Under the pieces are notes generated by a model. That model searched no databases and had not been told where the DNA came from. It was given only the letters and a program-made list of their open reading frames with translations. Below, piece after piece: positions 7,456 to 27,854 of a DNA stretch of 33,440 nucleotides. Position 1 is the first letter of the stretch. Each line of letters begins with the position of its first letter. Source of the DNA: Rariglobus sp. (lineage in GTDB: Bacteria > Verrucomicrobiota > Verrucomicrobiia > Opitutales > Opitutaceae); contig JAQSWS010000040.1 in NCBI GenBank assembly GCA_029266495.1, forward strand, positions 1-33,440. Direction: 5' to 3'. A program made the translations under genes and the position numbers.

Positions 7456-7474
7456 TAGGTGACAAGCCTGCCTT
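7445..7474 (+). repeat. 30-bp palindromic repeat, copy A
   Basis: TTGTCAC and GTGACAA arms around TTAATAG form a hairpin, followed by GCCTGCCTT. The same 30 bases occur at 22789-22818 with a single A/G difference that keeps the stem paired (T-A versus T-G). The stop codon of the DUF167 gene is inside the hairpin, and the convergent MATE gene ends at 7473. Both copies lie at the 3' side of a plus-strand gene, so a terminator-like role is possible. The conserved GCCTGCCTT tail, however, is not a T tract. Confidence 0.6.
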
Positions 7475-8798
7475 ATTTTCTCGTTAGAAAAAGAAACCGC
7501 CAGGCCAGCAGCACCGCGGCGATCGCCAGTCCCGCCGCCAGTCCCGTCCAGATACCCACCGCGCCCAAGCGGGTGTGCAGGCCGAGAACATAGCCGGCCG
7601 GAATCGCCAGCAGCCAATAGGAGATGAACGTGATCAACGCCGGCACGCGCACGTCGGTCAACCCGCGCAACGTCCCCGAACCGATCACTTGCGCCCCGTC
7701 AAAAAGCTGGAAAATCGCCGCCACCACCAGCAGGCGCGCCGCCAGCTCCGCCACCGCCGGATCATCCACGAACCCGCGCGCCAGCCATGGACCGCCCAGC
7801 CAGAACCCCACCGCCGACATGCTCATCATCAGGCACGCGATGACCAGCGTCCCTCCCATGATCGGCCGCGCCAGGTCCAGCCGGCCTTCACCCACCGCCT
7901 TGCCCACCCGCATGCTCGCCGCCATCGAAAGCCCGAGCGGAAACATGAACATGAAGCCCGCGCAACTCAGCGCGATCTGGTGGGCCGCCAGCGCCACCGC
8001 GCCCAGCCAGCCCATCATCAGCGCCGCCATCATGAACGCGCCCACTTCAAAAAGCAGCATGACCGCCGCCGGCACGCCGATCCGCACCATCTCGCGAAAA
8101 CGCGCCGCCTGCAGGTTCCCCACCCAGGTCTCCGGCCACGCGTCACGAAACGCCCCCGACCGCCGCAACCAGCCGACAATCACCACCAGCACCAGCACGC
8201 GCGACACCAACGTCGCCCAGCCCGCCCCGGCCAGCCCGAGCACGGGCGCACCCAAATGGCCGTATATCAGTATCCAGTTTAGCACGACGTTGAGCGCCAC
8301 CCCGCCCAGCATGATGAGCATCGGCACCCACGGCCGTCCCAGGGCCTCGGCGAATTGCCGGAACACCTGAAACACCAGCACGGGCAGGAGCGACGCCACG
8401 ATGAGCGCATAATAGGGATGAATCCCGGCGATCACCTCGGCCGGCTGGCCCATCCGGTGAAAGCCTCCGGCCAGGGCGAGCATGAGGGCCATCTCGGCCA
8501 TGCTCGCGACCACCGCAAGGATGACTCCGTGCTGGAGCCAGCGCCCGCCCGCCCGGTCGTCGCCCGCGCCATGCTCGCGCGACGCCAGCACCGCCACGGG
8601 AAGTAACAACCCGAGCCCGACCACAAAAAAGACGGAGAATACGCCGCCGGCGAAAGCCGACGCCGCCAGCGGCACGGCGCCGAGCCGCCCGATCATGACG
8701 CTGTCAGTCACGCCGATGAGCATCTGGCTGACCTGCCCCACGACGATGGGCAGTGCGAGGCCCAGCGTGGCGCGGGCTTCTTTGAGGACGGCAGTCAT
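7473..8798 (-). CDS. MATE family efflux transporter (NorM-like)
   Basis: A 441-residue integral membrane protein with about twelve hydrophobic segments in two related halves. The N-terminal half opens with LPIVVGQVSQMLIGVTDSVMIGRLG, the typical MATE helix-1 region, and the second half repeats the fold (GVPAAVMLLFEVGAFMMAALMMGWLG). These antiporters use Na+ or H+ gradients to expel cationic drugs and metabolites, and NorM is the nearest well-known group. It is a single gene, convergent with the DUF167 gene. A perfect CGGTCA / TGACCG dyad at 8805-8819 ends six bases before the start codon and could be an operator or leader hairpin. No ribosome site is visible. The substrate is unknown. Confidence 0.93.
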   Translation of the reverse strand: MTAVLKEARATLGLALPIVVGQVSQMLIGVTDSVMIGRLGAVPLAASAFAGGVFSVFFVVGLGLLLPVAVLASREHGAGDDRAGGRWLQHGVILAVVASMAEMALMLALAGGFHRMGQPAEVIAGIHPYYALIVASLLPVLVFQVFRQFAEALGRPWVPMLIMLGGVALNVVLNWILIYGHLGAPVLGLAGAGWATLVSRVLVLVVIVGWLRRSGAFRDAWPETWVGNLQAARFREMVRIGVPAAVMLLFEVGAFMMAALMMGWLGAVALAAHQIALSCAGFMFMFPLGLSMAASMRVGKAVGEGRLDLARPIMGGTLVIACLMMSMSAVGFWLGGPWLARGFVDDPAVAELAARLLVVAAIFQLFDGAQVIGSGTLRGLTDVRVPALITFISYWLLAIPAGYVLGLHTRLGAVGIWTGLAAGLAIAAVLLAWRFLFLTRK

Positions 8799-8804
8799 GC
8801 GAAC

Positions 8805-8819
8805 CGGTCAAACTGACCG
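8805..8819. promoter_or_regulatory. Dyad just upstream of the MATE start
   Basis: CGGTCA (8805-8810) and TGACCG (8814-8819) form a perfect 6-bp dyad with a 3-base centre, six bases before the ATG of the MATE gene. A site this close to the start could be a repressor operator or a short leader hairpin. No regulator gene is adjacent. Confidence 0.3.
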
Positions 8820-8899
8820 TCGCCACGGCCAAGGCACGCGCGAAAAACAGACGGACCCCAGGATCCAGTCGCTCCGAGGCGTGAGCTGGGGATGAACGC

Positions 8900-8977
8900 A
8901 GGGCCGCCGCTTGCGGCGTGCCTCGCTGACTGGGCGGAACCCGGGTTCACGGAAGGCACGCCGCAAGCGGCGGCCCT
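8900..8977. repeat. REP/BIME-like perfect inverted repeat pair
   Basis: Arms 8900-8923 and 8954-8977 are perfect 24-base inverted copies around a 30-base spacer, and each arm contains a small internal hairpin (GCCGC TT GCGGC). Read outward-in, one arm starts after GCAG (8898-8901) and the other after GTAG (8976-8979 on the minus strand). This is the same foot arrangement as the element at 732-801, although the stem sequences differ. It sits between the MATE start and the end of the COG3014-type gene, in a 210-base gap with no other recognisable feature. Confidence 0.7.
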
Positions 8978-9008
8978 ACATCAACCAACGGCTACGACTT
9001 AAATCGCT

Positions 9009-10217
9009 TTAATTCTCCAGATCGCTGCGGATGATCACCAGATCACCCGGCAGGCCGGCCGTGCTGGCGAGGTCGGGCGCGGGCACGCTGATCACAAAGG
9101 TCTGCGTGCGGTCCTCGAGCAGGCGGCCCGCCGCGTTGTAAAATGTGAGCACCGCCGGATGATCGCCGGGCGGCAGACGCACCGCGCCGAAGCTGAGGTA
9201 ACGCGGCAGGTTGTTCCATGCGCGCACGTCGGCGCTGGTTTGCGTGGCGGCGCTGGTGAGCTTGCTGATGATGCCCACCGCCGCGAGGCCGAGCGCCACG
9301 TTGCCGCTGTCCTTGCCCGTGCCATAGGCGGCGGTGCCGAGCGCGCCCACCAGGGCAACGTCACCGATCGTGTCGGAGCGCTGCTTGAAGACGGCTTTGT
9401 TGCCGAGGATGTGGTCCATCACGCGCCCGCCGCGCGTGGTCGCCTGCCAGGACACGTCGTCGTAGGGCGGAAGGGGAATTCCATGATTGGCCACCGAAAG
9501 GCGGGCGGAGGCAACGGGCGATTTGTCGACGATGAATTTGAGCAACTCGCCGTATTCACCCGACGCATACTTGAGGGGACCGGGGCCGTATTCGACGAAG
9601 ACCAGCACGTTGGCCGAGGGATCGTAATCCGGCGGGGTGGCGCGGCCCTGGGCCTGCGCACTCGTCCGGGCGCGGGTGAGCGCGTCGGAGCCGTCTCCGC
9701 CGAGCTTTTTGGAAACGAGACCATCGAGATAATCGAGAAGCACCCAGTCGCCGGAGTAGGTTTTGTTCTCGGTGTCGCTGTCGATGAACTGACCGCTGCG
9801 AAAAAGGGCGCGCGCATTGTCGGCCTCGCCGTCGCGCCAGTAGAGCAGGCCGCGATAATAATTTCCCATGATGCGCTCGTAGGGTTCGCCGGCGAAGGGC
9901 TTGGTTTCCTCGCGCCCGAAGAGCTTGCGGGATTTGGCGGCATCGGCCCCTCCCGGGGCGAGCGCGGCGGCGGTGCGGGCCAGGGCGTCGTCGAGTTTCG
10001 CCCTGGCTTCGTCGGTTTGCCCGCGGCGAAGCGCCGCGGCGGCAACGCGGTATTCCCAGAGGGCCTTGTCGCGTTCGGGAGCCACCGCGAGGTTGGCGTT
10101 GCCATCGACGACCGGATCGCCCGTGTAGGGGACCGTGGCGCGGGGCGCGGTGGCGCAACCGGTGAGGCCGGCGGCCAAGGCAAGCGCGCAGAGGGAGAGC
10201 GAAAGGGAGCGAAACAC
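9009..10217 (-). CDS. COG3014-type TPR-like lipoprotein (second copy)
   Basis: A 402-residue lipoprotein: a GTG start, a hydrophobic signal and the lipobox GLTGC with lipidated Cys21. The body resembles COG3014-type proteins that sit beside ycfL and lpoB in proteobacteria. A helical TPR-like front carries GEPYERIMGNYYRGLLYW and GEADNARALFRSGQFIDSD, and a beta-rich back carries FVEYGPGPLKYASGEY and QATTRGGRVMDHILGNKAVF. The same blocks occur in the gene at 11947-13068, so the two are paralogues. This copy is lipidated; the other has a cleavable signal peptide. It is the last gene of the envelope locus, separated from the previous gene by a strong hairpin (10331-10363), so it probably has its own promoter. 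Function is unknown; an envelope partner of the LpoB/YcfL-like proteins is inferred. Confidence 0.8.
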   Translation of the reverse strand: MFRSLSLSLCALALAAGLTGCATAPRATVPYTGDPVVDGNANLAVAPERDKALWEYRVAAAALRRGQTDEARAKLDDALARTAAALAPGGADAAKSRKLFGREETKPFAGEPYERIMGNYYRGLLYWRDGEADNARALFRSGQFIDSDTENKTYSGDWVLLDYLDGLVSKKLGGDGSDALTRARTSAQAQGRATPPDYDPSANVLVFVEYGPGPLKYASGEYGELLKFIVDKSPVASARLSVANHGIPLPPYDDVSWQATTRGGRVMDHILGNKAVFKQRSDTIGDVALVGALGTAAYGTGKDSGNVALGLAAVGIISKLTSAATQTSADVRAWNNLPRYLSFGAVRLPPGDHPAVLTFYNAAGRLLEDRTQTFVISVPAPDLASTAGLPGDLVIIRSDLEN

Positions 10218-10263
10218 GGGGGAATTCGGATTTTTAACGAAAAGGATGAATCGTTTACGCGGG

Positions 10264-10311
10264 GTCTTGCTTTGCGATCTTTGCGACCTGGCCTGGCGTT
10301 TTTGCGTTAAG
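10264..10311. repeat. Degenerate TTTGCG-type intergenic repeat
   Basis: TTTGCG occurs three times within about 36 bases (10271-10276, 10280-10285, 10301-10306) in the gap upstream of the second COG3014-type gene. The wording CTTTGCGATCTTTGCGACC resembles short degenerate intergenic repeats I have seen in other high-GC genomes. It is not an open reading frame of note and has no obvious promoter character. Confidence 0.3.
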
Positions 10312-10330
10312 ATCGGCTGGCGATAAACGA

Positions 10331-10363
10331 TGACGCCGCACGTGGGACAACACGGCGGCGTCA
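10331..10363 (-). terminator. Strong hairpin after the 341-residue secreted protein gene
   Basis: TGACGCCGC (10331-10339) pairs with GCGGCGTCA (10355-10363), and CGTG/CACG extends the stem past one bulged base to a 6-base loop. It lies 26 bases after the stop of the gene at 10390-11415. Downstream on the minus strand there is only a weak T-rich stretch (TCGTTTATC), so termination may be partial. Confidence 0.5.
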
Positions 10364-10389
10364 GGGTTCGGGGGTCTTTGGCGGAACGG

Positions 10390-11415
10390 TTATTCGGTCG
10401 TGAGGGTGATGTCTTCCATCAGGGCGAGGGCGGTGGCCTCGGCGATGTCGCTCACGTCGAACTTGCGGGCCACGCGACCGGCAACCTTGTCCTTGCCGAG
10501 AACATCGGTGGCGCTCGCCTGGCCGATGATCGCGGAGTCACTCAGGCGGATCGCGGTGGCCTGGATGTCGGGCACGGTCTGGTAGGTGTCGCCAGAGATG
10601 TTGGCGACCTTGACGGTGCGGCTCGACACGAGGATCTCGACCACGACGTCGGTCACCTTGGTGAGAGCCTCGCGGTCCTTGCGGGCGGCCTCATTCGTCG
10701 CGGTGGTGAAATGATCGAGCGGTTTGTCGGAGATGAGCGCGGCGGCCGTGCGCTGGTCGGCGAGCTTCGCTCCGCCGGCGCGGAGGGGACGTCCGAAGAG
10801 GCGCTCGATGTCGCGCACGGTCTGTTTGTCCACCAGCGTGCCGGTGGTCTTCGGGCTGTAGGTGTAGGTGTTTTCGGCGGTGACGCGCGTGCCCCGGCCT
10901 TCGGCGCTGCCCTTGCCGGGCGTGTGGGTGTCGCCGTTGGTGGTGTTGCCGATGTTCACGTTGACCTGGGTCTCGGCGTTGCCCGCGGGAGGAGCGGCGG
11001 GCTTGGGCGCATTGGGATCAAGTTCGAAGGAGGACTTCGTCTCGCCTTGCACGCTCTCGGTCCGCTCCTTGCGGCCGGTCACGCGAAGGCCGGAGATTTC
11101 GTCAACGAGTTCGCGGTTCACGTAGATGAGATAACGGGGCTTGTCCTTCGCGACGGTGGTGCGGAAGGCATCGACGACCTGCTTCGCCTTTTCAGGCGAG
11201 ACGAGCGTGGTGCCGGGGCCGTAAAGCCGCTGGCCGGAGGCGGAGGGTTCGCCGCCGTCAACCGGCGCGGGTTGCGGACGCGGATCGGCCTCCGTGATCG
11301 GAACGGGAGGTTCGGGCTCCTTGGTGGAGGCGGTGGACGTGTCGTGCTTCTGCTGGGCGAAGAGCGCGGCGGGAACGATCGCCAGCGCAAGAACCAGAAG
11401 GGTGCGTGTTTTCAT
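10390..11415 (-). CDS. Secreted protein of unknown function in the LpoB/YcfL locus
   Basis: I do not recognise a named family for this 341-residue protein. It has a clear signal peptide (MKTRTLLVLALAIVPAALFA, then QQ). A Pro-rich linker leads to KPRYLIYVNRELVDEISGLRV, a disordered region rich in Asn, Gly and Thr, and a structured C-terminal half. That half has FGRPLRAGGAKLADQ, then DVVVEILVSSRTVKV and DIQATAIRLSDSAIIGQAS. The alternation in the last part (a strand ending 'vvVeI', then 'vpdIqATAIRLsDsaIIGQA') resembles the later strands of LpoB/CsgG-type folds such as 'SFQLIDAATSEIVWED' in the neighbouring LpoB-like protein. A divergent relative is my inference. It lies between the ycfL-like gene and the second COG3014-type gene. 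A 6-bp hairpin and pyrimidine tract (11416-11445) precede the ATG. Confidence 0.7.
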   Translation of the reverse strand: MKTRTLLVLALAIVPAALFAQQKHDTSTASTKEPEPPVPITEADPRPQPAPVDGGEPSASGQRLYGPGTTLVSPEKAKQVVDAFRTTVAKDKPRYLIYVNRELVDEISGLRVTGRKERTESVQGETKSSFELDPNAPKPAAPPAGNAETQVNVNIGNTTNGDTHTPGKGSAEGRGTRVTAENTYTYSPKTTGTLVDKQTVRDIERLFGRPLRAGGAKLADQRTAAALISDKPLDHFTTATNEAARKDREALTKVTDVVVEILVSSRTVKVANISGDTYQTVPDIQATAIRLSDSAIIGQASATDVLGKDKVAGRVARKFDVSDIAEATALALMEDITLTTE

Positions 11416-11521
11416 GAAGGAAAAGAGAGGGACATTTCGTGTCCCGGGGATGAGCCGGGGAGACGGGAAGGGACGTTGGTAGGATGGGCCCGGAGCTCAC
11501 GCCCAAGGCCACGGGTGATGA

Positions 11522-11932
11522 TCAGCGGGCCTGGCGGACGCGGATGGTGTAGGTGCGCGCCTGGGTGTTCATGGACTTGAAGTTGACCGCCTCGGTGGTG
11601 TTTTCGCCGAGGATGAGGTTCTGCCAGGGAGTCTCGTCTCCGGTGGAGAAGCCCTGGGCATCTTTGAAGACGCAGGAAACCTGGACCTGGATGCGGCGGT
11701 TTTCGCGATTCTTGATGTTGGCGACAACCTCCAGGCGTCCGTCGTCATTGACGCGTTGCTGGATGCCGGTGCTGGTCACGGAGTGCTGCACCTGCTTGTC
11801 CATGAGCACGAACTTCTCGGTGTTTTCGAGGGTGTATTTGGTGGTGTCCTTCGCGGCGTAGGGGCCGTGCGAACAACCGGTCAGCAAGGCGAGCGCGGCC
11901 AGGCCGGCGAGGGAGAGGAGGGTCTTTTTCAT
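11522..11932 (-). CDS. YcfL-like (DUF1425) lipoprotein
   Basis: A 136-residue lipoprotein: MKKTLLSLAGLAALALLTGC, with the lipidated Cys at position 20. The mature part fits the YcfL/DUF1425 family, a small beta-sandwich: VEVVANIKNRENRRIQVQ-like wording (here EVVANIKNRENRRIQVQV), then CVFKDAQGFSTGDETPWQ and EAVNFKSMNTQARTYTIRVR. In E. coli ycfL lies directly upstream of lpoB, the activator of penicillin-binding protein 1B; here the two are neighbours again with the COG3014-type gene between them. ATG 11932 is chosen because the lipoprotein signal starts exactly there. It follows the COG3014-type stop by 14 bases, so cotranscription is likely. Biochemical function is unknown. Confidence 0.85.
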   Translation of the reverse strand: MKKTLLSLAGLAALALLTGCSHGPYAAKDTTKYTLENTEKFVLMDKQVQHSVTSTGIQQRVNDDGRLEVVANIKNRENRRIQVQVSCVFKDAQGFSTGDETPWQNLILGENTTEAVNFKSMNTQARTYTIRVRQAR

Positions 11933-11946
11933 GGTTGGGAGGAAAT

Positions 11947-13068
11947 TCAGGAGGCGCGGTCGGAAACGAAGATGACGGTGTCCGGTTGTTCGGCGGCGAC
12001 CTTGATTACGACAGGGCGCGACACGACGGGTTTCCCGGTTTCGTCGATAAATTCCACGGTGGCGGCGTGTTCGCCGGGAGCGAGCTTGACGGAAATGAAG
12101 CCCACGCGGCCGGGAAGCGTGTCCCATGCGCGGGTATCGGCCTTCGTCTTGGTGAGCATCGAGGCGCCTTTAAAAAGGACCCCGCCAATCGCCAGACCGG
12201 CGCTGAGATCGCTGCTGCCGCCCAACCGGAGGCTGGTCGCGGCGCCCGCGAGCGCGACATCGCCGACCGTGCCGGTGCTCTCCTTAAACACAGCCTTGTT
12301 GCCCAACACGTGGTCCATCACGCGACCGCCGCGGGTGGTCGCCTGGAAATTCACGTCGTCCAGCACAGCGAGAGGAATGGCCTGGTCGCCGAGTTTGACA
12401 ACCGCCCCGGTGATGGGACTCACCCCGGGAACAACCTTGAGCAGCTCCTTGTTTTTGCCTTCGGCGACCTTGAGGGGACCCTGGCCGAACTCGACAAAAA
12501 CGAGCGTGTTGCCCGCTGCATCGAGCGCGGGAAGCGGCGCGGACGTCAGTTTGGCGGCGCGCTCGTAGGCGTCCTTGCCATCGCCGCCGAGCTTGGCGGT
12601 GGCGAGACCGTCGAGGTAGTCGAGGGTCACGTAGTCGGAGGCGTAGGCTTTGTTTTCGACGTCGGCGTCGATGAATTGCGCGCTGCGGAAACAGGCGCGG
12701 GCGTTGTCGGCCTCGCCGTCCATCCAGTAAAGGATGCCGCGATAATAGAAAGCCATCACGCGCTCGTAGGGTTCGCCGATGAAGAGCTTCGCCGATTCGT
12801 CGGACCAGAGGCTGCGGGCTTTTTTGGCGCCCGCTTCGTCGACGACAATGCCGCCGATGGCGGTGATCGCGGAATCGAGGCTGATCTTTGCGGAGGCAAA
12901 ATCCCCGCGGCGCAGCGCGAGGGAGGCAGCCTGGTATTCCTTAAGAATAAAATCCTTGTCGGGTTTTTTCGGTTTGGCGGCGAAAGCGGGCTGGGCGGTC
13001 GTGAGCAAGGCGAGCGTCAGGGCGCCGGCAAGGGAGGACCAACGGACGAGGGAACGGACGTGCGACAT
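11947..13068 (-). CDS. COG3014-type TPR-like exported protein (first copy)
   Basis: A 373-residue protein starting at ATG 13068. Its signal peptide (SSLAGALTLALLTTAQPAFA, then AK) has no lipobox Cys, unlike its paralogue at 9009-10217. The shared blocks are GEPYERVMAFYYRGILYW, DGEADNARACFRSAQFIDAD, FVEFGQGPLKVAEG and QATTRGGRVMDHVLGNKAVF, with similar spacing, which shows duplication within this locus. The front half looks like TPR-type helices and the back half is predicted beta-rich. It follows the lpoB terminator, so it must have its own promoter in 13069-13146 or depend on read-through. The ycfL-like gene follows after 14 bases. A role in the same envelope complex as LpoB/YcfL-like proteins is inferred from context only. 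Confidence 0.8.
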   Translation of the reverse strand: MSHVRSLVRWSSLAGALTLALLTTAQPAFAAKPKKPDKDFILKEYQAASLALRRGDFASAKISLDSAITAIGGIVVDEAGAKKARSLWSDESAKLFIGEPYERVMAFYYRGILYWMDGEADNARACFRSAQFIDADVENKAYASDYVTLDYLDGLATAKLGGDGKDAYERAAKLTSAPLPALDAAGNTLVFVEFGQGPLKVAEGKNKELLKVVPGVSPITGAVVKLGDQAIPLAVLDDVNFQATTRGGRVMDHVLGNKAVFKESTGTVGDVALAGAATSLRLGGSSDLSAGLAIGGVLFKGASMLTKTKADTRAWDTLPGRVGFISVKLAPGEHAATVEFIDETGKPVVSRPVVIKVAAEQPDTVIFVSDRAS

Positions 13069-13146
13069 GTGGGCGTGGGTTGAAGGCGCGAGGTGTGAAC
13101 CAAGGCGCACCGCACGGCTCTGGAATGCCGGCGGTGCACACTCTGC

Positions 13147-13180
13147 AAAAAAAGAGCCGCTCCGTGGAAGGTGGCGGCCC
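13147..13180 (-). terminator. Intrinsic terminator of the lpoB-like gene
   Basis: On the minus strand GGGCCGC (13180-13174) pairs with GCGGCTC (13160-13154) with one G-T pair, followed directly by seven T residues (13153-13147). It starts 10 bases after the lpoB-like stop codon. This is a textbook rho-independent terminator, and it separates lpoB transcription from the COG3014-type gene. Confidence 0.85.
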
Positions 13181-13190
13181 TTGTCAAAAA

Positions 13191-13826
13191 TCACCGGTAG
13201 GCGGCGTCCTCGAGACCCTGCTTCTTGATCTCGGCGGAGTCCTCCCAGACGATCTCGCTGGTGGCGGCATCGATGAGCTGGAAGCTGTAGAGAATGTAGT
13301 CGCTCAAACCCTGGCTCGTGCGGGCGGACATGCCCTGAAGCTTGCCGGTGAGGAAGTAGTCGGCGCCGCGGAACTGAACGACGTTGGGATCCTGCGAAGC
13401 GGTGACGAGGCCATCCTGCTTGAGCTGCTGCTCGCGCTCGAGCGCACGCATGTTTTCACGGGCGAGAAAGCGCACGCGGCCGGCGGCCTTTGAGTTGAGC
13501 TGGGTGCGAATGCGCGTGAGGAAGATGTCCTTGTTAATGGGAAACCGCGTTTCGTTCATGATCGGCTCCAGCACCACGCGCGGGGTGGTTTTGGCGTTGG
13601 TGATCTCGGGAATGCCGAGGATGCTCCGCGCCATCTTGTCGGTGACGGTGACGAGGTCCTGCGACTCGATGCCGGTGCCGGCGACGAAGCCGCGCTCGTC
13701 GGCCTTCATCTCGGTGACGGGCACGCCGGAGGGATTGCGAACGCCTTGGTTGGCACAGCCGGCAAGGAACGCCGTCGCGACGGCGCCCGCCATAAGGGCA
13801 AGATTACGATAGGTGGGTGGGTTCAT
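13191..13826 (-). CDS. lpoB: LpoB-like lipoprotein (penicillin-binding protein activator family)
   Basis: A 211-residue lipoprotein: signal, lipobox FLAGC with Cys24, a short linker, then the LpoB fold. Family landmarks are TDKMARSIL, TTPRVVLEPIMNETRFPINKD (a long strand-turn), FLTRIRTQL, RVRFLARENM, GADYFLTGKLQGMSAR and YILYSFQLIDAATSEIVWED. In E. coli LpoB spans the periplasm from the outer membrane to stimulate PBP1B in septal and lateral peptidoglycan synthesis. The linker here is much shorter than in E. coli LpoB, so reach and partner may differ. ATG 13826 starts the lipoprotein signal; the longer upstream frame has no signal character. It is bounded by terminators on both sides, so it is probably monocistronic. 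The family is firm; the PBP partner is unproven. Confidence 0.88.
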   Translation of the reverse strand: MNPPTYRNLALMAGAVATAFLAGCANQGVRNPSGVPVTEMKADERGFVAGTGIESQDLVTVTDKMARSILGIPEITNAKTTPRVVLEPIMNETRFPINKDIFLTRIRTQLNSKAAGRVRFLARENMRALEREQQLKQDGLVTASQDPNVVQFRGADYFLTGKLQGMSARTSQGLSDYILYSFQLIDAATSEIVWEDSAEIKKQGLEDAAYR

Positions 13827-13861
13827 GATTGGGTGGGAAGCGGGAAAATAAAAGACCGGCC

Positions 13862-13894
13862 AAACAAACGCCGCGCCCATGAAAGGACGCGGCG
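13862..13894 (-). terminator. Intrinsic terminator of the glycine-zipper gene
   Basis: On the minus strand CGCCGCG (13894-13888) pairs perfectly with CGCGGCG (13875-13869) around a 12-base loop, followed by TTTGTTT (13868-13862). It lies about 20 bases past the stop of the gene at 13915-14550 and ahead of the lpoB-like start at 13826. Confidence 0.75.
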
Positions 13895-13914
13895 GAGAGA
13901 CCGGCTGTTTCAAC

Positions 13915-14550
13915 TCAACGACCGAACATCGAGTTGGCGTTGCTCATCGGCGTGGAGGCACCGCCGTAGTAATTGTTGATAATCGTGATCTGCTGTGGCG
14001 GTTGCGCAGCCGGAACGGCCACGACCCGGGGTTGAAGGTGGTATATGTAGGAAGATCCGCCAAAAATCCGGCGGCCCGGACGCGCCGGCTCCGACAAACG
14101 TCCGAGCAGATAACCCGCTCCCGCGCCGATCGCGGCGCCTTCCCAGCCCTGGCGATGGTGATTATGTCCGATGATTGCACCGGCGATACCGCCCAGGAGC
14201 GTCGTGGTGGCGGTGCGACTCGGACGCGCATGCGACGGCGTGGCATGATACACCGGAGGCGCATAACCCGGCCCCGATGAATAATAATAAGACGGGCCGC
14301 CCGGATTGCCGTAGTAGGGCTGCGCCTCCCGGCGTGACTGCGCATACGCACTTCCCAGCAACCCACCCGCCACCGCGCCGATGACCGCACCCTCGGTGCC
14401 GTTGTTGCGCGATCCGGTGTTGTTGCCGATCACTCCGCCGGCAATTGCCCCCAAGGCGGCTCCGCCCACGGTGGACGGCGTAAACAACTGGGCTTGCGCC
14501 GGCACCGCCGCGGTCAGGACAAGCGCAAGGAGCGAAATCGTGGTTTTCAT
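13915..14550 (-). CDS. Exported double glycine-zipper protein
   Basis: A 211-residue protein with a signal peptide (MKTTISLLALVLTAAVPAQA) and two glycine-zipper hairpins. The first is GGAALGAIAGGVIGNNTG through GAVIGAVAGGLLGSAYA, around residues 28-70. The second is LLGGIAGAIIGHNHH through GAAIGAGAGYLLGRLS, around residues 115-150. Between and after them are Tyr/Gly/Pro-rich segments, ending in ITIINNYYGGAS. Glycine-zipper proteins (YMGG or Rick_17kDa-like families) insert in or associate with the outer membrane. It is the most upstream gene of the minus-strand envelope locus and has its own terminator (13862-13894). Its promoter should lie in 14551-14709, shared divergently with the LysM gene. 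Specific function is unknown. Confidence 0.8.
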   Translation of the reverse strand: MKTTISLLALVLTAAVPAQAQLFTPSTVGGAALGAIAGGVIGNNTGSRNNGTEGAVIGAVAGGLLGSAYAQSRREAQPYYGNPGGPSYYYSSGPGYAPPVYHATPSHARPSRTATTTLLGGIAGAIIGHNHHRQGWEGAAIGAGAGYLLGRLSEPARPGRRIFGGSSYIYHLQPRVVAVPAAQPPQQITIINNYYGGASTPMSNANSMFGR

Positions 14551-14709
14551 GGGATTAATCCGAATCCTTTTTTAAGACACCCCCGAGCCCTCAGGGTTGC
14601 AAGAATGTTGTTTTACACCCGGTTTACCATCCGGGCCGGCGCGTAGGGATAAATGCCGCTTTGCAAACTCATTGGCCCCCGCCAAGCTGCGCGCATCATT
14701 CGCACCGGC

Positions 14710-16683
14710 ATGAAAAAACCTCGCTCCCCCCGCCTCGCCCTCGTCCACGGTCTTCTCGGCTCCGCGCTCCTCGCCTCCCCGGCCTTCGCCCTCACCCCCG
14801 CCGAACTTGACTCCCTCCGCAGCAAGGCCGACCGGGGCAACGCCGTCGCCCAATACAACCTCGGTCTCGCCTACGCCGACCGCCGTGAACCCACCTACGA
14901 CCCCGCCCAAGCGTATGCCTGGCTCAGCCTCGCCGCGTCCAACGGCACCACCGGCAAGGCCTTGGGGCAGCTGACCAGCCTGCTCACCCCCGAACAACTC
15001 GCCGCGGGAAAACGCCAGCTCGTCGCACTTACCGCCAGTCCCATAAGCCCCGTCGCCCCCGCCGACTCCCCCATTATGGCAGCCGGCGAGCCCGCCGCGG
15101 CTGCTCCTGCCGACGACCAGGACCAGAAAAAACTCAGCGCCGAACTCGCCGCCGCTTGGAAAGAAAACGAACTCCTCAAAGCCGGCCTGACCGCCCAGCT
15201 CGCCGATGCCAACAAACGCATCGCCATCGCCGAGGCCGCCCTCGCCAGCAAGGACAAGGAAATCACGACTCTTCACACCCGCCTCACCGAGGCGTCCTCC
15301 ACCCCGGTCGCGCCCGCCGCCCCGATCGGAGCCAGCGCCGAACTCGCCTCCCTCCGCGCCGAACACGAGCAGTTGCAAGCCGCCGCCACCGCCGCCGCCA
15401 CGGAAGCGGCCGATCTCCGCACGTCCCTCGCGAAAGCCACCTCCGAGCAAGCCGCCCTTCGTGGAAAACTCGCGAGCGCCATCACCGATATCTCCGAAGC
15501 CCGCCGCGCCCAGAGCCTCGCCGAAGCTGAGGCCGCCAGCCTCAAGGCCGCCGCCGACCGCTCCAGCGCCGAACGCCTCGCTGTCGCCGCCCAACTCGAA
15601 ACCGTCACCAACGAACTCGCCGCCTCCAAGGAATCCGCCGCCTCCAAGCCCGCCGGTCCTAATCCCCTCGCCGAAACGGTCAAAACGCTCGAACAGGAAC
15701 GAGCCGCCCTCGCCCTCCAACTCTCCGCCGCCGTCGAACGCGCCGACGCGGGCGAAACCGCCCTGAAAGCCAAAGAAAAAGAGATCGCCAGTCTCCAGGC
15801 GCGCGTAGCCGAAGCCTCCGCTCCGGTCCAGCCCCTCTCCGACACCGGCCTCGCGGTTCTAAAAGTCGACCGTGACCGCCTCGCGGATTCCGTCAAAATC
15901 CTCACCGAAGAACGCGACGCCCTCACCGCCCAGCTCGCCGCCGCCAAGGCCGCCGTGCCTGCGGCCCCCGCTCCGGAAGTGGTGGCGGCCCCGATCCCGC
16001 CCGCCCCGACTCCCCCCGCCGCGCCCGATGCCGAGGCGGCCTCCAAACTGGCCGATCTTGAAAAAGCCAAGGCGGAGACCGACAGCAAACTCGAGGCCGC
16101 CCTCCGCAGTTTCACCCTTCAACAGGCTGAAATCGACCGCCTCCAAAAGTCCCTCGCCAGCATCGATGAGGAACGCGCCGCCACCGCCGCCAAACTCGAC
16201 TCCGCCAACCAGGCCATCGCCGAAAAAGCCTCCGCCCTCACGACCGCCCAAGCCAGCCTCGCCGACGCCCGCAAGACCATCGACACCGCCACCGCTGAAC
16301 TCGTCGCCACCCGCGACCAGCTTCGCCAGACCCAGGCCCAGTCCGCCGCCTCCGCGATCGAAGCCCAGCAGCTCAAGACCCGTCTCGCCCTGGCCGGCAA
16401 TCTGCCGGCAGCCACGTCTCCCTCGCGCCCCGGAACGATCCCCTCCATCTCGGTCAACCTGCCCGCGACCGCCGCCCCCGTCACCCCGCCTCCGGCCGCA
16501 CCCGTCGCGGAAACACCCGCCGCGCCGCGCACCCACACCGTCGCCCCCGGCGATTCCCTCTCGCGCATCTCGAAGCAATACTACGGCACCGCCGCCCGCT
16601 GGAACGACATCCTCCAGGCCAACAAGGCCGTGATCCGCAACCCCGACGAACTCGCCCTCGGCACCAAGCTGCGCATCCCGTAA
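14710..16683 (+). CDS. Periplasmic Sel1/TPR - coiled-coil - LysM protein
   Basis: A 657-residue exported protein. After a signal peptide (LALVHGLLGSALLASPAFA) comes a short Sel1/TPR-like segment (ADRGNAVAQYNLGLAYADRR, DPAQAYAWLSLAASNG). A very long Ala/Lys/Glu-rich coiled coil from about residue 130 to 560 has Pro/Ala hinges, and the last 49 residues (609-657) are a LysM domain: HTVAPGDSLSRISKQYYG to LGTKLRIP. LysM binds N-acetylglucosamine in peptidoglycan, so the protein probably ties a filamentous rod to the wall. ATG 14710 is chosen because the signal peptide begins there; the 19 extra codons upstream lack signal character. It is divergent from the envelope locus and may serve the same surface. 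Prediction of the individual domains is strong; cellular role is inferred. Confidence 0.88.
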   Translation: MKKPRSPRLALVHGLLGSALLASPAFALTPAELDSLRSKADRGNAVAQYNLGLAYADRREPTYDPAQAYAWLSLAASNGTTGKALGQLTSLLTPEQLAAGKRQLVALTASPISPVAPADSPIMAAGEPAAAAPADDQDQKKLSAELAAAWKENELLKAGLTAQLADANKRIAIAEAALASKDKEITTLHTRLTEASSTPVAPAAPIGASAELASLRAEHEQLQAAATAAATEAADLRTSLAKATSEQAALRGKLASAITDISEARRAQSLAEAEAASLKAAADRSSAERLAVAAQLETVTNELAASKESAASKPAGPNPLAETVKTLEQERAALALQLSAAVERADAGETALKAKEKEIASLQARVAEASAPVQPLSDTGLAVLKVDRDRLADSVKILTEERDALTAQLAAAKAAVPAAPAPEVVAAPIPPAPTPPAAPDAEAASKLADLEKAKAETDSKLEAALRSFTLQQAEIDRLQKSLASIDEERAATAAKLDSANQAIAEKASALTTAQASLADARKTIDTATAELVATRDQLRQTQAQSAASAIEAQQLKTRLALAGNLPAATSPSRPGTIPSISVNLPATAAPVTPPPAAPVAETPAAPRTHTVAPGDSLSRISKQYYGTAARWNDILQANKAVIRNPDELALGTKLRIP

Positions 16684-22866: not shown

Positions 22867-23802
22867 ATGGTCTCCGACAACGCCTTTCCCGTGATGGCCG
22901 AACCCGTGTGGCGCGCCCTCCAGCGCGCCCACGAGGCCCGCGTGCGCGCCTGGACCGATCCCCACCTGGAACGCGCCGGACGCGGCGAGAAACACCCGGT
23001 TTACGATTTTCTCTTCAGTTACTATTCGTTCCGGCCCTCGTGGCTGCGCCAGTGGCATCCCGGCCCCGGCGTGATCCTCGCCGGCGAAGGCGCCCGGGAG
23101 TTTCTTCGCTGGCCCGAATACCGTGAAACCCCGGACGGAGTGGCGATCGACCCGTCCACGCTTCCGGACAAGCGTCGCGTATCCATTCGATGGATTCACG
23201 ATCTGCTTGCCGTGATGACGGCGCGCCCGCCGGCCTTCGGCTGCTTCGGCCTGCACGAATGGGCGATGGTCTACCGGCAGACGCCCGACGAAGTCCGCCA
23301 CAACGCGTATCCGCTGCGCTTTCCGCCCGATGAACTGGCCCGCATCGTCGAAAGCCAGCCCGTGCGCTGCTCGCACTTCGACGCATTCCGTTTTTTCACC
23401 GCGCCCGCCCGCCCGCTCAACAAGCTCCAGCCCTCCCGTGAAACCGTGCCCGAACAGGAGCAACGCGGCTGCCTGCACGCCAACATGGACCTCTACAAGT
23501 GGGCGTTCAAACTCGCCCCTTTCACGCCGGCCGACCTGATCGCCGATTGCTTCGAACTCGCCCGCGACATCCGCGAAATGGACATGCGCGCGAGCCCCTA
23601 TGACCTGAGCGCCCTTGGTTTCGAGCCCATCATGATCGAAACGCCGGAAGGTCGTGCCGATTATGAACGTCATCAGCGTGTCTTCACCTCGCGCGGGGAA
23701 CCGCTTCGCGGTCGTTTAGTTATTTTGTGCGAACGACTTCTCGCCAACCCATCCGATCACGGCTCAGTCTTCGCGCCGTGCGCACGATCCGTCCCTCACT
23801 AA
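22867..23802 (+). CDS. Conserved protein of the group usually labelled 3-methyladenine DNA glycosylase
   Basis: A 311-residue soluble protein. The wording HPVYDFLFSYYSFRPSWLRQWHPGPGV, then RWIHDLLAVMTARPPAFGCFGLHEWAMVYR and RCSHFDAFRFFTAPARPLN is very characteristic of a conserved bacterial family that databases often label 3-methyladenine DNA glycosylase. I recall that label from family members and cannot see a helix-hairpin-helix glycosylase motif, so the activity is doubtful. Several conserved His, Cys and Glu residues (FGLHEW, CSHFDAF, GCLHANMDLYKW) suggest a metal- or heme-type pocket instead. The ATG at 22867 has no ribosome site. The 3' end overlaps the start of the protease gene by up to 76 bases in another frame. 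Confidence 0.65.
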   Translation: MVSDNAFPVMAEPVWRALQRAHEARVRAWTDPHLERAGRGEKHPVYDFLFSYYSFRPSWLRQWHPGPGVILAGEGAREFLRWPEYRETPDGVAIDPSTLPDKRRVSIRWIHDLLAVMTARPPAFGCFGLHEWAMVYRQTPDEVRHNAYPLRFPPDELARIVESQPVRCSHFDAFRFFTAPARPLNKLQPSRETVPEQEQRGCLHANMDLYKWAFKLAPFTPADLIADCFELARDIREMDMRASPYDLSALGFEPIMIETPEGRADYERHQRVFTSRGEPLRGRLVILCERLLANPSDHGSVFAPCARSVPH

Positions 23803-26800
23803 AGGTCTTCATTTTCATCGGCGCCCTCGCCGCCCTCTGGCTGAATGCGCCGCAACTCGGCCGGCACCTCACGGCCACCGGATCGTCGCAACCCGCACCG
23901 TTCCCGCCCTCCGTTTCCGCCGCTCAACCCCAAAGCGACGACTCCGCCTCCACCTCAGTTCCCGCGGAAACCCGTCGCCAGCCTGATTTGCAGGTCGATC
24001 CGGCCACCCTGCCGGAAGGCACCGTGTGGTCCTTCAGGGATGGTGGCACGACGCACACCTACGCGATCGCGATGGATGAATTATATGTGCCCGCCGGCAC
24101 GCGCGCGGAACGATTGCACGCCCTGGCGGTGCAACCGGATCTGGACGCCCTGCTCGCCGCCGCGGCAACGCTGGCCCGGGAAACCGGAGCTCAACCCCGG
24201 CTCGTCCTTTATCCGTTGTCGGGCCCGCGCGATGAACGCACCCGGCGCATCGTGACTCCCAAGGTCCACATCGAAACCGCCAGCCTGGAAACGGTGCGCA
24301 CGGCCGCCGCATCACTCGGGCTCACCGCGTGGCAAACGCCGGGCTATGCACCGGGTCACGCCATTGCCGAGATCGAAGGCGATCCCGCGCAACCGTTGCG
24401 CGCCGCCGCGGCGCTGGCGGCATTGTCCAACGTCACCGCAGCCTCCCCGTTGCTCGCCAGCCAGCACTTCAAACGCGCCGTCACCCTGCCGAACGATCCG
24501 CTGTTCTCGCAACAATGGCACCTGCGCAACACCGCCCAGCAAAGCGGCGTTTCCGGCATCGATGTCAACGTCACCCCCACCTGGACCACGCTGAAGGGCA
24601 CGGGTGTTTCCGTCGGCATCGTGGACGACGGCGTGCAGCTCACCCACCCCGACCTTTCGCCCAATGCAGCGGCGGACGGTCACTATGACTGGAACGACGA
24701 TGACACCAATCCCGCGCCCGACGTCACCGAGGATTACCATGGCACGGCGGTCGCGGGCCTGGCCGCCGCCCGCGGTGGCAACAGCCTCGGTGTTTCGGGC
24801 GTCGCTCCGCTGGCCACCCTCCACGGCCTGCGCCTCATCGCCCTGCCGTCCACCGACCAGGAAGACGCCGAGGCAATGGCGTGGGAAAATGATGTCATCC
24901 AGATCAAGAACAACAGTTGGGGTCCGGTGGATGACATGCCGTGGATCCTCGCGGACGCCGGCCCGCTTTGGAAAACCGCCGTGGCCACCGGCACGTCCAC
25001 CGGACGCGACGGGCTCGGCACGATCTACGTCTGGGCCTCCGGCAACGGTCGCACGCTCGGGGACCAGAGCAGCAAGGACGGTTACGCCTCCAATCGCCAC
25101 GTCATCGCCGTCGGCGCGATCACCAACCGGGGCGTCGCCGCCTCCTTCAGCGAGGGCGGCGCCCACCTGGTGACCAGCGCCCCGGGCGATGCCAGCCTCG
25201 GCCTCGTCACCACCGACCTGACCGGGTCGCAAGGCTACAACAACGGCAGCAAATCGGGGGAATTGAACGACGCCCAGTATACCCAGACCTTCAACGGCAC
25301 CTCGGCCGCCACGCCGGTCGTTTCCGGCGTGATCGCCCTCATGCTGGAGGCCAACCCCAACCTTGGCTGGCGCGACGTGAAGGAAATCCTGCTTCGCTCC
25401 TCGAAACAGGTTCAACCCACCAGCTCCGACTGGGTGACCCGCAACGGCGGTCAACCCTCCCTCCCCGCCATCAAGCACCACCCGCTCTACGGCGGCGGTC
25501 TTATCAATGCCCAAGCCGCCACCACCCTCGCCAGCATCTGGACCGCGCTGGACGCAGCAACCGTATTGACCCGGTCCACCACCTCGGGCGGACAGGATAT
25601 CGTGGACGCGGGTCCGGCTGTGATCATCCCGATCACCCCCGCCGCCAGTCCCGTCCTCCGGGTCGAACACGTCGAAGTGACCGTCAGCATCGTCCATAGC
25701 TACCGCGGCGACCTCGAAATCAAACTGATCTCTCCCGCCGGCGTTGTGAGCACGCTCGCCACGCCCACCTTCGCGGACGACGGCAGTGACTACGAACAAT
25801 GGACGTTCACCAGCGTCCGTCATTGGGGAGAAAGCTCCGCCGGCACCTGGAAACTCTCCATCCGCGATGCCTTGAGAGGCATCACCGGCTATCATTACTT
25901 TGTTTCCGCCACCCTGAATATCCACGGCGTCGCCGTGGCCCCGCCCACGATCACCCTTCAGCCTGAAGGCACCGTGACCACCGCGGGCACCGCGGTGACG
26001 CTCACCACGGCGGGCACCGGAACGAATCTCGCCTACCAATGGTCGCGAGACGGCGTGCCAGTCTCCGGGGCGACCGACGCCACCCTCGCCTTGGGCGCAG
26101 TCACCCTCGCCCAGGCCGGCACCTACACCTGCACGCTGTCCAATCTGGGAGGACCGGTCACCACTGATCCGGCCGAGGTCGTGGTCTATGTCCCCGCAGG
26201 CCAGGCGAGCCTGCTCGACACCGGCACCACCTTTACCGCCCCGGTCCTGGCCGCCGGCCCGATCGAATCGTTCCAATGGTTCCGTAACGGGGATCCGCTC
26301 GTCGATTCGTCCCGAATCACGGGCGTCACCACATCCGTTCTCACGGTGCGCAACCTCACTCCGGCCGACGACGGCACCTACACCCTCGAAGCAATGTTCG
26401 AGGGCTCTCCGCTCCCCACGGGAGCGTTCGCCCTCACCGTGCGTCCTCCACCCATCGTAAGCGCCCCGGCCCGGCAGACGCTCCGCCTCGGGGCTCCCGC
26501 GACGGTATCACTGATAAAAGAGGGCGGGCCCTACACCTACTACTACACCGGCCTGCCCGCGGGCGTTACCTACAACGCCTTCACCGGGGCCTTGGGCGGA
26601 CGACCCACCGCCACGGGAACCTTTGCGGTCGTGCTCACGGCCTTCAACACGAGCGGTCTCACCACCAGGATCAACATCACCCTCGTGGTCGAGCCCCTGC
26701 CGTCCGCACTCGTCGGCGTGTTCAACGGCTACGTGGCCCGCGATTCCGCCCTTAACGGCAATTTGGGCGGCGCGGTCACCCTGACCACCACCACCACGGG

Positions 26801-27809
26801 ACACCTCACCGGCCAGCTCACACTCGGAACCGGCACGTTCCCCTTCAAAGGAGCTCTCGACGGACTGCCCGGGGCTCCCGCCACCGCCAGGATCACGGTT
26901 CCACGCACCGGCCAGACTTCCCTCGTATTGCGGCTGACGCTGCCACTCACGAGCACCGCCGTCACCGGCACGGTGGACCAGACCGCGGCCGTCAGCGCCT
27001 GGCGCTCCGCCTGGAACAGCAACAAACCCGCCACCGCCTACGCCGGTCGCTACACCTTCGCCCTTGAAGCGCCCGATGGCTCCGGCTGGCCCGCCGGCTA
27101 CAGCGTCGGCACGCTCACCGTCGCGACGAACGGCGCCGTGAGCCTGACCCTCCACCCTGCCGACGGAAGCGCGATCATGACACGCTCGACCACGCTCTCC
27201 GCCAACGGCGCGCTGCCGCTCTTCGCCCTGACTCCCGTCGCGCCCCGGGGTTCGTTTGTCGGACAGCTCACGTTGCCGCCAAAGAGCACGCCCGCCGCCT
27301 CCATCACGGGCGAGGTCTCCTGGCTGCGGCGCTCAGCCACCTCGACGCTCTACGCCAACTCCGCCGGGTTCGGACCGCTGGACCTTGCGCTTCACGGCGG
27401 CCGCTACACCGCACCCCCGAGCGGCACCCGCTTGCTTGAGCTGCCCGCCACGACCGGCAATGTGGATCTCGAGTTCGGCGGCACCGACGTGGACCTGGGC
27501 GCCCAGGCCGCGGTGCTCGCCCCGTTCACGGTCACGTTAACGAAGGCGAACACCATCGTGCCGCCCACCCCGAACCCCACGGCACTCAAGCTCACGGTGA
27601 ACGTGACGACCGGGCAGTTCAGCGGCAGCTTCACGCTCACGGATCCCAATCCCGCCAGCCCGGGCAGCATGGTGAAGCGCACCCAGCAGTTCTTCGGGGT
27701 ATTCCTGCCCCAGGATGAGATTGGCGCGGGATTCTTCACCCTGCGCGCCCTGCCCGGCGCTTCCTCCGGCACCCGCTCCGGCTCGGTGCTGTTGATCGAG
27801 TCGCAGTGA
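23727..27809 (+). CDS. Large secreted subtilisin-like (S8) protease with P-domain and Ig-like domains
   Basis: A 1360-residue exported protease. Order: N-terminal hydrophobic signal (VFIFIGALAALWL), a prodomain to ~residue 255, the S8 catalytic domain ~265-605, a P/Homo-B domain ~630-735 (VTVSIVHSYRGDLEIKLISP to SIRDALRG), two Ig-like domains ~740-920 (LAYQWSRDGVPVSGATDATL and FQWFRNGDPL), a putative-Ig segment (GLPAGVTYNAFTGALGGRP) and a long beta-rich C-terminal region ~980-1360. Catalytic residues are Asp300 (GIVDDGV), His338 (DYHGTAVAG) and Ser526 (NGTSAATP), with WASGN supplying the oxyanion Asn. Kexin-like S8 plus P-domain is typical. The start is GTG 23727 or GTG 23778, both inside the preceding gene; neither has a ribosome site. 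The next gene follows after 32 bases. Confidence 0.9.
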   Translation: MRTTSRQPIRSRLSLRAVRTIRPSLKVFIFIGALAALWLNAPQLGRHLTATGSSQPAPFPPSVSAAQPQSDDSASTSVPAETRRQPDLQVDPATLPEGTVWSFRDGGTTHTYAIAMDELYVPAGTRAERLHALAVQPDLDALLAAAATLARETGAQPRLVLYPLSGPRDERTRRIVTPKVHIETASLETVRTAAASLGLTAWQTPGYAPGHAIAEIEGDPAQPLRAAAALAALSNVTAASPLLASQHFKRAVTLPNDPLFSQQWHLRNTAQQSGVSGIDVNVTPTWTTLKGTGVSVGIVDDGVQLTHPDLSPNAAADGHYDWNDDDTNPAPDVTEDYHGTAVAGLAAARGGNSLGVSGVAPLATLHGLRLIALPSTDQEDAEAMAWENDVIQIKNNSWGPVDDMPWILADAGPLWKTAVATGTSTGRDGLGTIYVWASGNGRTLGDQSSKDGYASNRHVIAVGAITNRGVAASFSEGGAHLVTSAPGDASLGLVTTDLTGSQGYNNGSKSGELNDAQYTQTFNGTSAATPVVSGVIALMLEANPNLGWRDVKEILLRSSKQVQPTSSDWVTRNGGQPSLPAIKHHPLYGGGLINAQAATTLASIWTALDAATVLTRSTTSGGQDIVDAGPAVIIPITPAASPVLRVEHVEVTVSIVHSYRGDLEIKLISPAGVVSTLATPTFADDGSDYEQWTFTSVRHWGESSAGTWKLSIRDALRGITGYHYFVSATLNIHGVAVAPPTITLQPEGTVTTAGTAVTLTTAGTGTNLAYQWSRDGVPVSGATDATLALGAVTLAQAGTYTCTLSNLGGPVTTDPAEVVVYVPAGQASLLDTGTTFTAPVLAAGPIESFQWFRNGDPLVDSSRITGVTTSVLTVRNLTPADDGTYTLEAMFEGSPLPTGAFALTVRPPPIVSAPARQTLRLGAPATVSLIKEGGPYTYYYTGLPAGVTYNAFTGALGGRPTATGTFAVVLTAFNTSGLTTRINITLVVEPLPSALVGVFNGYVARDSALNGNLGGAVTLTTTTTGHLTGQLTLGTGTFPFKGALDGLPGAPATARITVPRTGQTSLVLRLTLPLTSTAVTGTVDQTAAVSAWRSAWNSNKPATAYAGRYTFALEAPDGSGWPAGYSVGTLTVATNGAVSLTLHPADGSAIMTRSTTLSANGALPLFALTPVAPRGSFVGQLTLPPKSTPAASITGEVSWLRRSATSTLYANSAGFGPLDLALHGGRYTAPPSGTRLLELPATTGNVDLEFGGTDVDLGAQAAVLAPFTVTLTKANTIVPPTPNPTALKLTVNVTTGQFSGSFTLTDPNPASPGSMVKRTQQFFGVFLPQDEIGAGFFTLRALPGASSGTRSGSVLLIESQ

Positions 27810-27826
27810 GCTGCTCCTGTCGTCCT

Positions 27827-27854
27827 TCACGCGCCTCTTTCATGAGGCGCGTGA
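27827..27854 (+). promoter_or_regulatory. Perfect 11-bp hairpin covering the YdcF/ElyC-type ATG
   Basis: TCACGCGCCTC (27827-27837) pairs perfectly with GAGGCGCGTGA (27844-27854) around TTTCAT, and the ATG (27842-27844) straddles the loop and the second arm. It may be a terminator of the protease gene lacking a T tract, or a structure that controls access to this start codon. Confidence 0.45.

Follow-up and report, generated by a model that had tools for sequence, protein, structure and literature searches.

A divergent type of LpoB-containing gene module in Opitutaceae genomes, most of them without a detectable class A penicillin-binding protein

Introduction

Among the closest described relatives of the genes considered here is the ycfL–lpoB pair of Escherichia coli, whose LpoB lipoprotein activates the class A penicillin-binding protein (PBP) PBP1B. 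Typas et al. 2010 (PMC3060616) regarded both LpoB and the docking domain UB2H as confined to enterobacteria, under stringent cut-offs, and as having evolved together recently. We have examined a locus at positions 9009–14550 (minus strand) of a 33,440-nucleotide stretch of DNA from Rariglobus sp. (Verrucomicrobiota, Opitutales, Opitutaceae; assembly GCA_029266495.1, contig JAQSWS010000040.1, positions 1 to 33,440), which we call the window. Six genes are transcribed there in the order GZ (a glycine-zipper secreted protein), LpoB, COG3014-like copy 1, YcfL, N341 (an exported orphan protein) and COG3014-like copy 2 (table 1). An initial annotation, made from the sequence alone, had described six consecutive minus-strand genes; all six open reading frames (ORFs) were verified, their starts being refined from the sequence, and Pfam confirms the LpoB, DUF1425 and glycine-zipper families. 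The label COG3014, carried over from the initial annotation, is a presumed name for two of the proteins.

We favour, with moderate confidence, the view that the locus is a divergent form (type B) of an old module of outer-membrane lipoproteins, which has COG3014–YcfL–LpoB as its core and acts without class A PBPs. The LpoB and YcfL families are already known and the triad is present in public records. In the open-licence literature we noticed no paper on type B with N341, or on LpoB in genomes without class A PBPs, and found none on COG3014. LpoB homologues scoring above the Pfam cut-off turn out to be common, within a conserved module, in an order of which hardly any sampled genome has a class A PBP, and the core of that module occurs in Proteobacteria also. 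This raises a testable question, namely what job LpoB performs where no PBP1B exists, and draws the little-studied YcfL and COG3014-like proteins into one working hypothesis.

LpoB in the absence of detectable GT51

The window LpoB passes the Pfam gathering cut-off (PF13036, 71.7 bits vs 22.3) and lies below that of the equivalog model TIGR02722, penicillin-binding protein activator LpoB (65.8 vs 110.55 bits). A phmmer search of PDB sequences with this protein did not retrieve the LpoB structure. YcfL likewise passes its gathering cut-off (PF07233, 40.8 bits vs 28.3).

If LpoB is present, is there a class A PBP for it to activate? The window genome is 99.75% complete. No match to the GT51 transglycosylase was obtained in it at E ≤ 1, in a search that was positive in 10 of 14 controls and that does detect GT51 within this clade, in 4 genomes of the order and 2 of the family, and no UB2H match exceeded the cut-off (best 15.4 bits vs 27). 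Since no GT51 was detected, the window genome appears to hold no class A PBP on which LpoB could act. Two SEDS genes and two transpeptidase genes are present.

The same combination is found among the relatives. Of 132 genomes of the order, 67 have LpoB and 4 have GT51, and 64 of the 67 genomes with LpoB are without GT51; in the family the figures are 69 and 2 of 100, and 67 of the 69. These LpoB counts combine the curated Pfam cut-off with E ≤ 0.001, and 68 of the family's 69 are over the cut-off. Genomes assembled as a single contig, G035, G114, G133, G173 and G197 among them, also have LpoB and no GT51. Verrucomicrobium spinosum belongs to the same phylum as the window's Opitutaceae relatives. 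It is listed as having class A PBPs in PMC4803751. Loss of class A PBPs in bacteria of the Planctomycetes–Verrucomicrobia–Chlamydiae (PVC) group is already known from PMC8406291, whose text makes no mention of LpoB.

Types A and B of the module

How general is the gene set of the window? We compared 119 loci, comprising 58 loci from the order, the window, L003 and 59 further loci from the family; loci are not equivalent to genomes, since G175, G160 and G199 each give more than one. Of the order's 67 LpoB genomes, that of the window and 58 others were used, G111 and seven with weak partial matches having been left out; in the family 63 of the 69 LpoB genomes were classified and six weak partial matches left out. 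Across these 119 loci the neighbourhood is conserved among relatives, and COG3014–YcfL–LpoB is a widespread common unit. The initial annotation, which regarded the set as enlarged, is to be corrected in that COG3014 does not enlarge it.

The commonest order (32 of the 119 loci) is PEGA-like, CsgG-like, COG3014, YcfL, LpoB, which we call type A; it or a shorter form of it recurs across the order, and the triad stands alone in 23 loci. Type B has the order GZ, LpoB, COG3014, YcfL, N341 in 21 loci, and in 11 a COG3014 gene lies behind N341. The core families are thus common to type A and the window's type B, whereas the window has GZ and N341 in place of the CsgG-like and PEGA-like genes. In the stretches examined, the 43 CsgG-like and 38 PEGA-like genes all fall in type A sets; it is to these stretches, rather than to whole genomes, that their absence from type B refers.

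Because the B label was set by the presence of GZ or N341, the restriction of these two genes to type B is partly circular. The trees are independent of the label. The LpoB proteins of all 42 B-labelled loci, together with that of L159, form one clade with a support of 100 in the Shimodaira–Hasegawa-like approximate likelihood ratio test (SH-aLRT), and the GZ homologues, found in 41 of the 119 loci, each accompany an LpoB of this clade. L159 is labelled A by the GZ/N341 rule and falls in the B clades; its genome, G178, is counted as B. The type B COG3014 proteins also form one clade, with an SH-aLRT of 100 and a branch that measures 2.26 changes per column between it and type A, and the YcfL and LpoB trees agree with this split. 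The COG3014 tree was built without two short rows, and a second one without five long-branch rows as well; all trees are quick searches supported by SH-aLRT only.

The two types seldom share a genome. Among 100 family genomes 22 have type A only, 39 type B only, 2 both and 37 neither (Fisher p = 1.2e-4, a test that, like the other Fisher test on family genomes below, ignores kinship); A and B thus occur together in 2 of the 63 genomes bearing the module. Both nevertheless occur in different species within six genera. In G050 (L063), a congener of the window organism, a type A module is bordered by the same MatE and LysM genes as the window's type B; the MatE homologue next to it is 78% identical to the window protein, and the LysM homologue, 58% identical, is on the same side of the cluster as in the window. 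MatE homologues were found in 15 loci of type B and in 3 of type A; in one of the latter, L066, MatE is on the other side of the module. The two types lie in tandem in G035. In G174 a full type A set is followed by a lone YcfL gene (L112, 6584–7009) that groups with type B at a support of 100. An ancestral tandem of A and B, followed by loss of one or the other, is the simplest history; horizontal exchange may also have contributed. As a separate observation, two of the genomes sampled in the family retain GT51, and G174 is one of them.

Duplication of COG3014 and loss of a lipobox

The two COG3014-like copies of the window are 48% identical. B-labelled loci hold 40 COG3014 genes, 26 at the position of copy 1 (position a) and 14 at that of copy 2 (position b). 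Those at position b form one clade (13 rows, SH-aLRT 96); copy 1, at position a, lies within the type B clade. Only the window and L131, which comes from the same genus and from the same contig as L002, have both positions filled among the 119 loci.

The initial annotation had also set three lipidated proteins apart from a non-lipidated copy 1. Judged by eye, as were all signal peptides and lipoboxes of the window, this distinction stands: YcfL, LpoB and copy 2 have lipoboxes, and copy 1 has a cleavable signal without one. A lipobox-like cysteine was recognised by eye, atypical forms such as NGC, DGC, PGC and TAC being taken in, in 24 of 26 position-a and in all 14 position-b proteins, the exceptions being the position-a copies of the window and L131. 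A strict automatic rule accepts 17 of 26 and 12 of 14, and a lax one 25 of 26 and 14 of 14, the latter passing L131 on a cysteine that by eye lies outside the signal region. Of the other position-a proteins, the closest in the tree is that of L159, which keeps a lipobox-like cysteine. Because the window and L131 are the only exceptions and L159 has kept the cysteine, the predicted soluble copy is, as judged from sequence, a local change of recent date, in a lineage that has a lipidated copy as well.

What kind of protein is it? Pfam returned only sub-threshold tetratricopeptide (TPR) matches for the two copies (for copy 2, TPR_12 at E = 0.0015), while a relative in L058 matched TPR_2 at 31.6 bits (cut-off 27). 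The predicted model of copy 2, built from 6 sequences, has a mean predicted local distance difference test score (pLDDT) of 55.2 and is TPR-like at low confidence. TPR chains lead the fold searches with this low-confidence model, in which none of 878 Foldseek matches had E ≤ 0.001; VIA-align Z values reach 10.8 against TPR chains, values that are said to be common for helical repeats.

The orphan protein N341

Homologues of N341 were found in 39 of the 119 loci, every one with a B-clade LpoB, and thus in 39 of the 42 B-labelled loci. The other three, L149, L154 and L163, are cut off by the end of a contig directly behind LpoB or COG3014. In a survey of the phylum N341 occurred in 11 of 387 genomes, 10 of these from the family.

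The window N341 matched no Pfam or NCBIfam family. A Pfam search with 38 homologues touched eight families, each matched by a single member. The initial annotation saw in N341 strand patterns like those of LpoB and CsgG, a likeness that is neither supported nor refuted: profile comparisons, Pfam and a PDB profile search gave nothing credible. The comparisons with CsgG and LpoB reached at most 3.6% probability, over the signal peptide. A PDB profile match to TraK (E = 0.019) lies mostly in the low-complexity N-terminal part, and we do not believe it. The predicted model, from 4 sequences, has a pLDDT of 30.6, too low to compare folds.

Relatives in Proteobacteria

A type A COG3014 query found homologues, at 26% identity, beside YcfL–LpoB genes in Aeromonas and Azospirillum. 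The gene order in Aeromonas is hinT–COG3014–ycfL–lpoB–thiK, hinT and thiK being read as genes with HIT and APH domains; in E. coli K-12 it is hinT–ycfL–lpoB–thiK, with a gap of 2 bases between hinT and ycfL. The adjacency of ycfL and lpoB, on which the initial annotation relied, is thus directly observed. Because Aeromonas has COG3014 between hinT and ycfL, E. coli seems to have kept a remnant of the triad in its ycfL–lpoB pair (in E. coli the lpoB region was the part checked for COG3014). Azospirillum carries COG3014–YcfL–LpoB–DUF6844–CsgG-like on plasmid p1, the CsgG-like gene being recognised by the type A profile only (E = 3.3e-22), with sub-threshold LpoB and TolB_N matches in Pfam.

Each of these systems resembles the window in part. 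E. coli shares with it PF13036 and DUF1425 proteins with lipoprotein signals, encoded in one cluster, but in the window LpoB precedes YcfL and is separated from it by COG3014; the window also differs in its lack of a detected class A PBP and in the score of its LpoB below the TIGR02722 equivalog cut-off. Aeromonas has the core triad, with COG3014 beside YcfL and a short LpoB linker; unlike the window it has a PBP1B with UB2H, and profile searches of the 13 kb examined there gave neither GZ nor N341 nor a second COG3014. Azospirillum shares the triad, whereas its gene order is that of type A, with a CsgG-like partner and a DUF6844 protein, and no N341 was recognised.

The linker between the lipobox cysteine and the LpoB domain is 33 residues long in the window, 58 in E. 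coli, 23 in Aeromonas and 26 in Azospirillum. Where a lipobox was recognised it measures 22–32 residues in type A (72 of 78) and 31–34 in type B (41 of 42). The window linker, described earlier as very short, is indeed short beside that of E. coli, but it is not unusual, the other measured homologues lying between 22 and 34 residues.

The type B GZ profile also matches E. coli YcfJ (L171, 8100–8639; E = 6.3e-6), about 4 kb from lpoB. The occurrence of a glycine-zipper gene near lpoB both there and in type B may be due to chance.

Proposed role of the module and alternatives

What might such a module do? A multi-protein assembly spanning outer membrane and periplasm, as first suggested from the window alone, is plausible on the sequence evidence. 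The lipoprotein signals of LpoB, YcfL and most COG3014 proteins make the outer membrane the most likely place for the set, with the lipoproteins at its inner face. LpoB would then offer a small domain for binding, attached by a short tether, the COG3014-like proteins would serve as TPR-like scaffolds, and GZ and N341 would be the accessories of type B where type A has the CsgG-like and PEGA-like proteins. The whole would act at the interface of outer membrane and peptidoglycan, and not through class A PBPs. Given the lack of a class A PBP and the short tether, LpoB would most likely bind proteins close to the outer membrane, first among them the products of its neighbouring genes. Activation of PBP1B by the E. 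coli protein would be a later use of one member.

This reading draws on the gene content and its conservation, the lack of detectable GT51, the rarity with which A and B co-occur, the swap at one site within a genus and the comparison of Aeromonas with E. coli. We extend it only tentatively, at slightly less than an even chance, to a fuller history: an ancient machine unrelated to class A PBPs, from which the E. coli line lost COG3014 at this place and, with a longer tether, made LpoB into a PBP1B activator, and of which the Opitutaceae have a second and deeply divergent edition, swapped with the other at one site. If so, the place of the CsgG/PEGA part is taken in the Opitutaceae edition by N341 and the glycine-zipper protein.

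Several observations weigh against a type B module of this kind. The 37 family genomes in which no module was recognised show that it is dispensable. COG3014 is missing from the 16 kb of L152, and GZ, YcfL and N341 from the 14 kb of L159, which has an LpoB and a COG3014 of the B clades. The N341 homologue of G291 (L185, 8252–9190), from outside the family, stands alone, no module gene being recognised in 17 kb, and N341 may have a separate job of its own. Aeromonas combines a short-linker LpoB with a PBP1B bearing UB2H, and therefore a short linker alone does not exclude activation of a PBP. Over their domain the LpoB proteins of the window and of E. coli are only 18.8% identical (25 of 133 columns), which leaves room for functions that differ in any direction. 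Finally, the hairpins of the window (see below) argue against a single transcript, although most type B loci are without them.

The main rival is that the module regulates peptidoglycan synthesis through the SEDS polymerases (RodA/FtsW) and their class B PBPs, which would have to be the sole glycan makers here. Membership of the LpoB family is consistent with this, as are the two SEDS and two transpeptidase genes of a genome without GT51, and some clusters of PVC bacteria are known to lack class A PBPs (PMC8406291). Yet the family genomes in which no module was recognised would presumably also rely on SEDS, LpoB linkers are short, and no conserved cell-wall neighbour was noticed by eye among the 25 largest neighbour clusters, many of them antisense shadow ORFs and two of them run through Pfam. 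We regard regulation of SEDS enzymes as unlikely. A little less likely again is a CsgG-like ring for secretion or anchoring at the outer membrane, in which LpoB, CsgG-like and PEGA-like proteins would share a CsgG/TolB-N-like domain and type B would be a reduced form with N341 replacing CsgG. Profiles of the CsgG-like and PEGA-like proteins align at 97–100% probability and those of LpoB and the CsgG-like proteins at 34% and 72% in two runs, but LpoB and PEGA-like profiles align at 25% and 0.6% only. One of two type A CsgG-like proteins tested matches PF03783 (E = 7.8e-13), the other (L058) having no CsgG match, and the window LpoB itself has a sub-threshold CsgG match in Pfam (E = 0.0026). The type B stretches examined hold no CsgG-like gene, N341 has no profile relation to CsgG, and no substrate gene was recognised.

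Two further explanations have very little probability. An accessory ring of the flagellum like FlgO/FlgP/FlgT is suggested by sub-threshold FlgT_M and FlgT_C matches in type A CsgG-like and PEGA-like proteins and in the Aeromonas LpoB, but the window genome has no FlgH match and, in the family, FlgH is present in 37 of 63 genomes with the module and in 21 of 37 without it (Fisher p = 1.0). Finding no association between module and FlgH, we reject this explanation as highly improbable. Marginally lower still do we place the activation of a class A PBP, as in E. coli, which the initial annotation had entertained in proposing a peptidoglycan-synthesis regulator. The PF13036 match and the nearby YcfL gene speak for it, but the window genome has neither GT51 at E ≤ 1 nor UB2H over the cut-off, which leads us to reject it there; 98 of the 100 family genomes are without GT51, and the window LpoB is under the TIGR02722 cut-off.

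With regard to FlgH itself, the window genome (G000) differs from its congeners G050 and G219, which do have a match; the genus may be flagellated only in part, with the window organism among its non-flagellated members.

Features of the locus and its surroundings

The coordinates are collected in table 1. For all six genes the ratio of nonsynonymous to synonymous substitution (dN/dS) relative to L002 is 0.08–0.15.

Are the six genes transcribed as a unit? Terminator-like hairpins follow GZ and LpoB, and one six-gene operon is therefore not supported; the window cluster may form two or more transcripts. The hairpin between LpoB and copy 1 was not listed by a simple pattern scan and was found by folding the gap and with a hairpin finder. 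In type B loci, the window included, a hairpin follows GZ in 6 of 40 and lies between LpoB and COG3014 in 7 of 25, against 0 and 1 in shuffles. The pattern scan for terminators gave 9 sites vs 6.5 in shuffles, which is no excess; a sigma-70 promoter scan gave 0 sites, and an Rfam search of 8000–16000 gave 0 matches.

Table 1. Genes, hairpins and flanking site markers of the window locus.
Feature	Coordinates	Strand	Evidence and remarks
MatE transporter, site marker outside the module	7473..8798	-	PF01554, E = 1.1e-52
COG3014-like copy 2 (position b), 402 aa, GTG start	9009..10217	-	lipobox LTGC; TPR-like N-terminal half, low confidence
N341, exported orphan protein, 341 residues	10390..11415	-	no Pfam, NCBIfam or credible PDB match
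YcfL-like lipoprotein (DUF1425), 136 aa	11522..11932	-	PF07233, E = 2.1e-10; lipobox LTGC
COG3014-like copy 1 (position a), 373 aa	11947..13068	-	cleavable Sec-type signal, no lipobox
Terminator-like hairpin and T run, LpoB–copy 1 gap	13152..13182	-	gap fold; -15.6 kcal/mol
LpoB-family lipoprotein, 211 aa	13191..13826	-	PF13036, E = 7.9e-20; lipobox LAGC; 33-residue linker
Terminator-like hairpin, GZ–LpoB gap	13869..13894	-	10-pair stem, then TTTGTTT; -21.3 kcal/mol
Glycine-zipper secreted protein (GZ), first type B gene	13915..14550	-	PF13441 (Gly-zipper_YMGG), E = 3.6e-17; PF05433, E = 2.7e-15
LysM protein, weak Sel1 match, site marker outside the module	14653..16683	+	PF01476, E = 9.6e-9

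Between copy 2 and the MatE gene lies an inverted repeat (8900–8977) with arms of about 24 bases each, and the stretch 8900–9008 folds at -71.9 kcal/mol; the repeat may be a dispersed palindromic element. Elsewhere in the window, a DUF218 protein is encoded at 27806–28435, in what we take to be the family of the E. coli envelope protein SanA. A subtilase carrying a P-domain and Ig domains is encoded at 23727–27809 and, on the opposite strand at 28539–32819, a protein of 1426 residues that contains passenger-associated-transport repeats (PATR).

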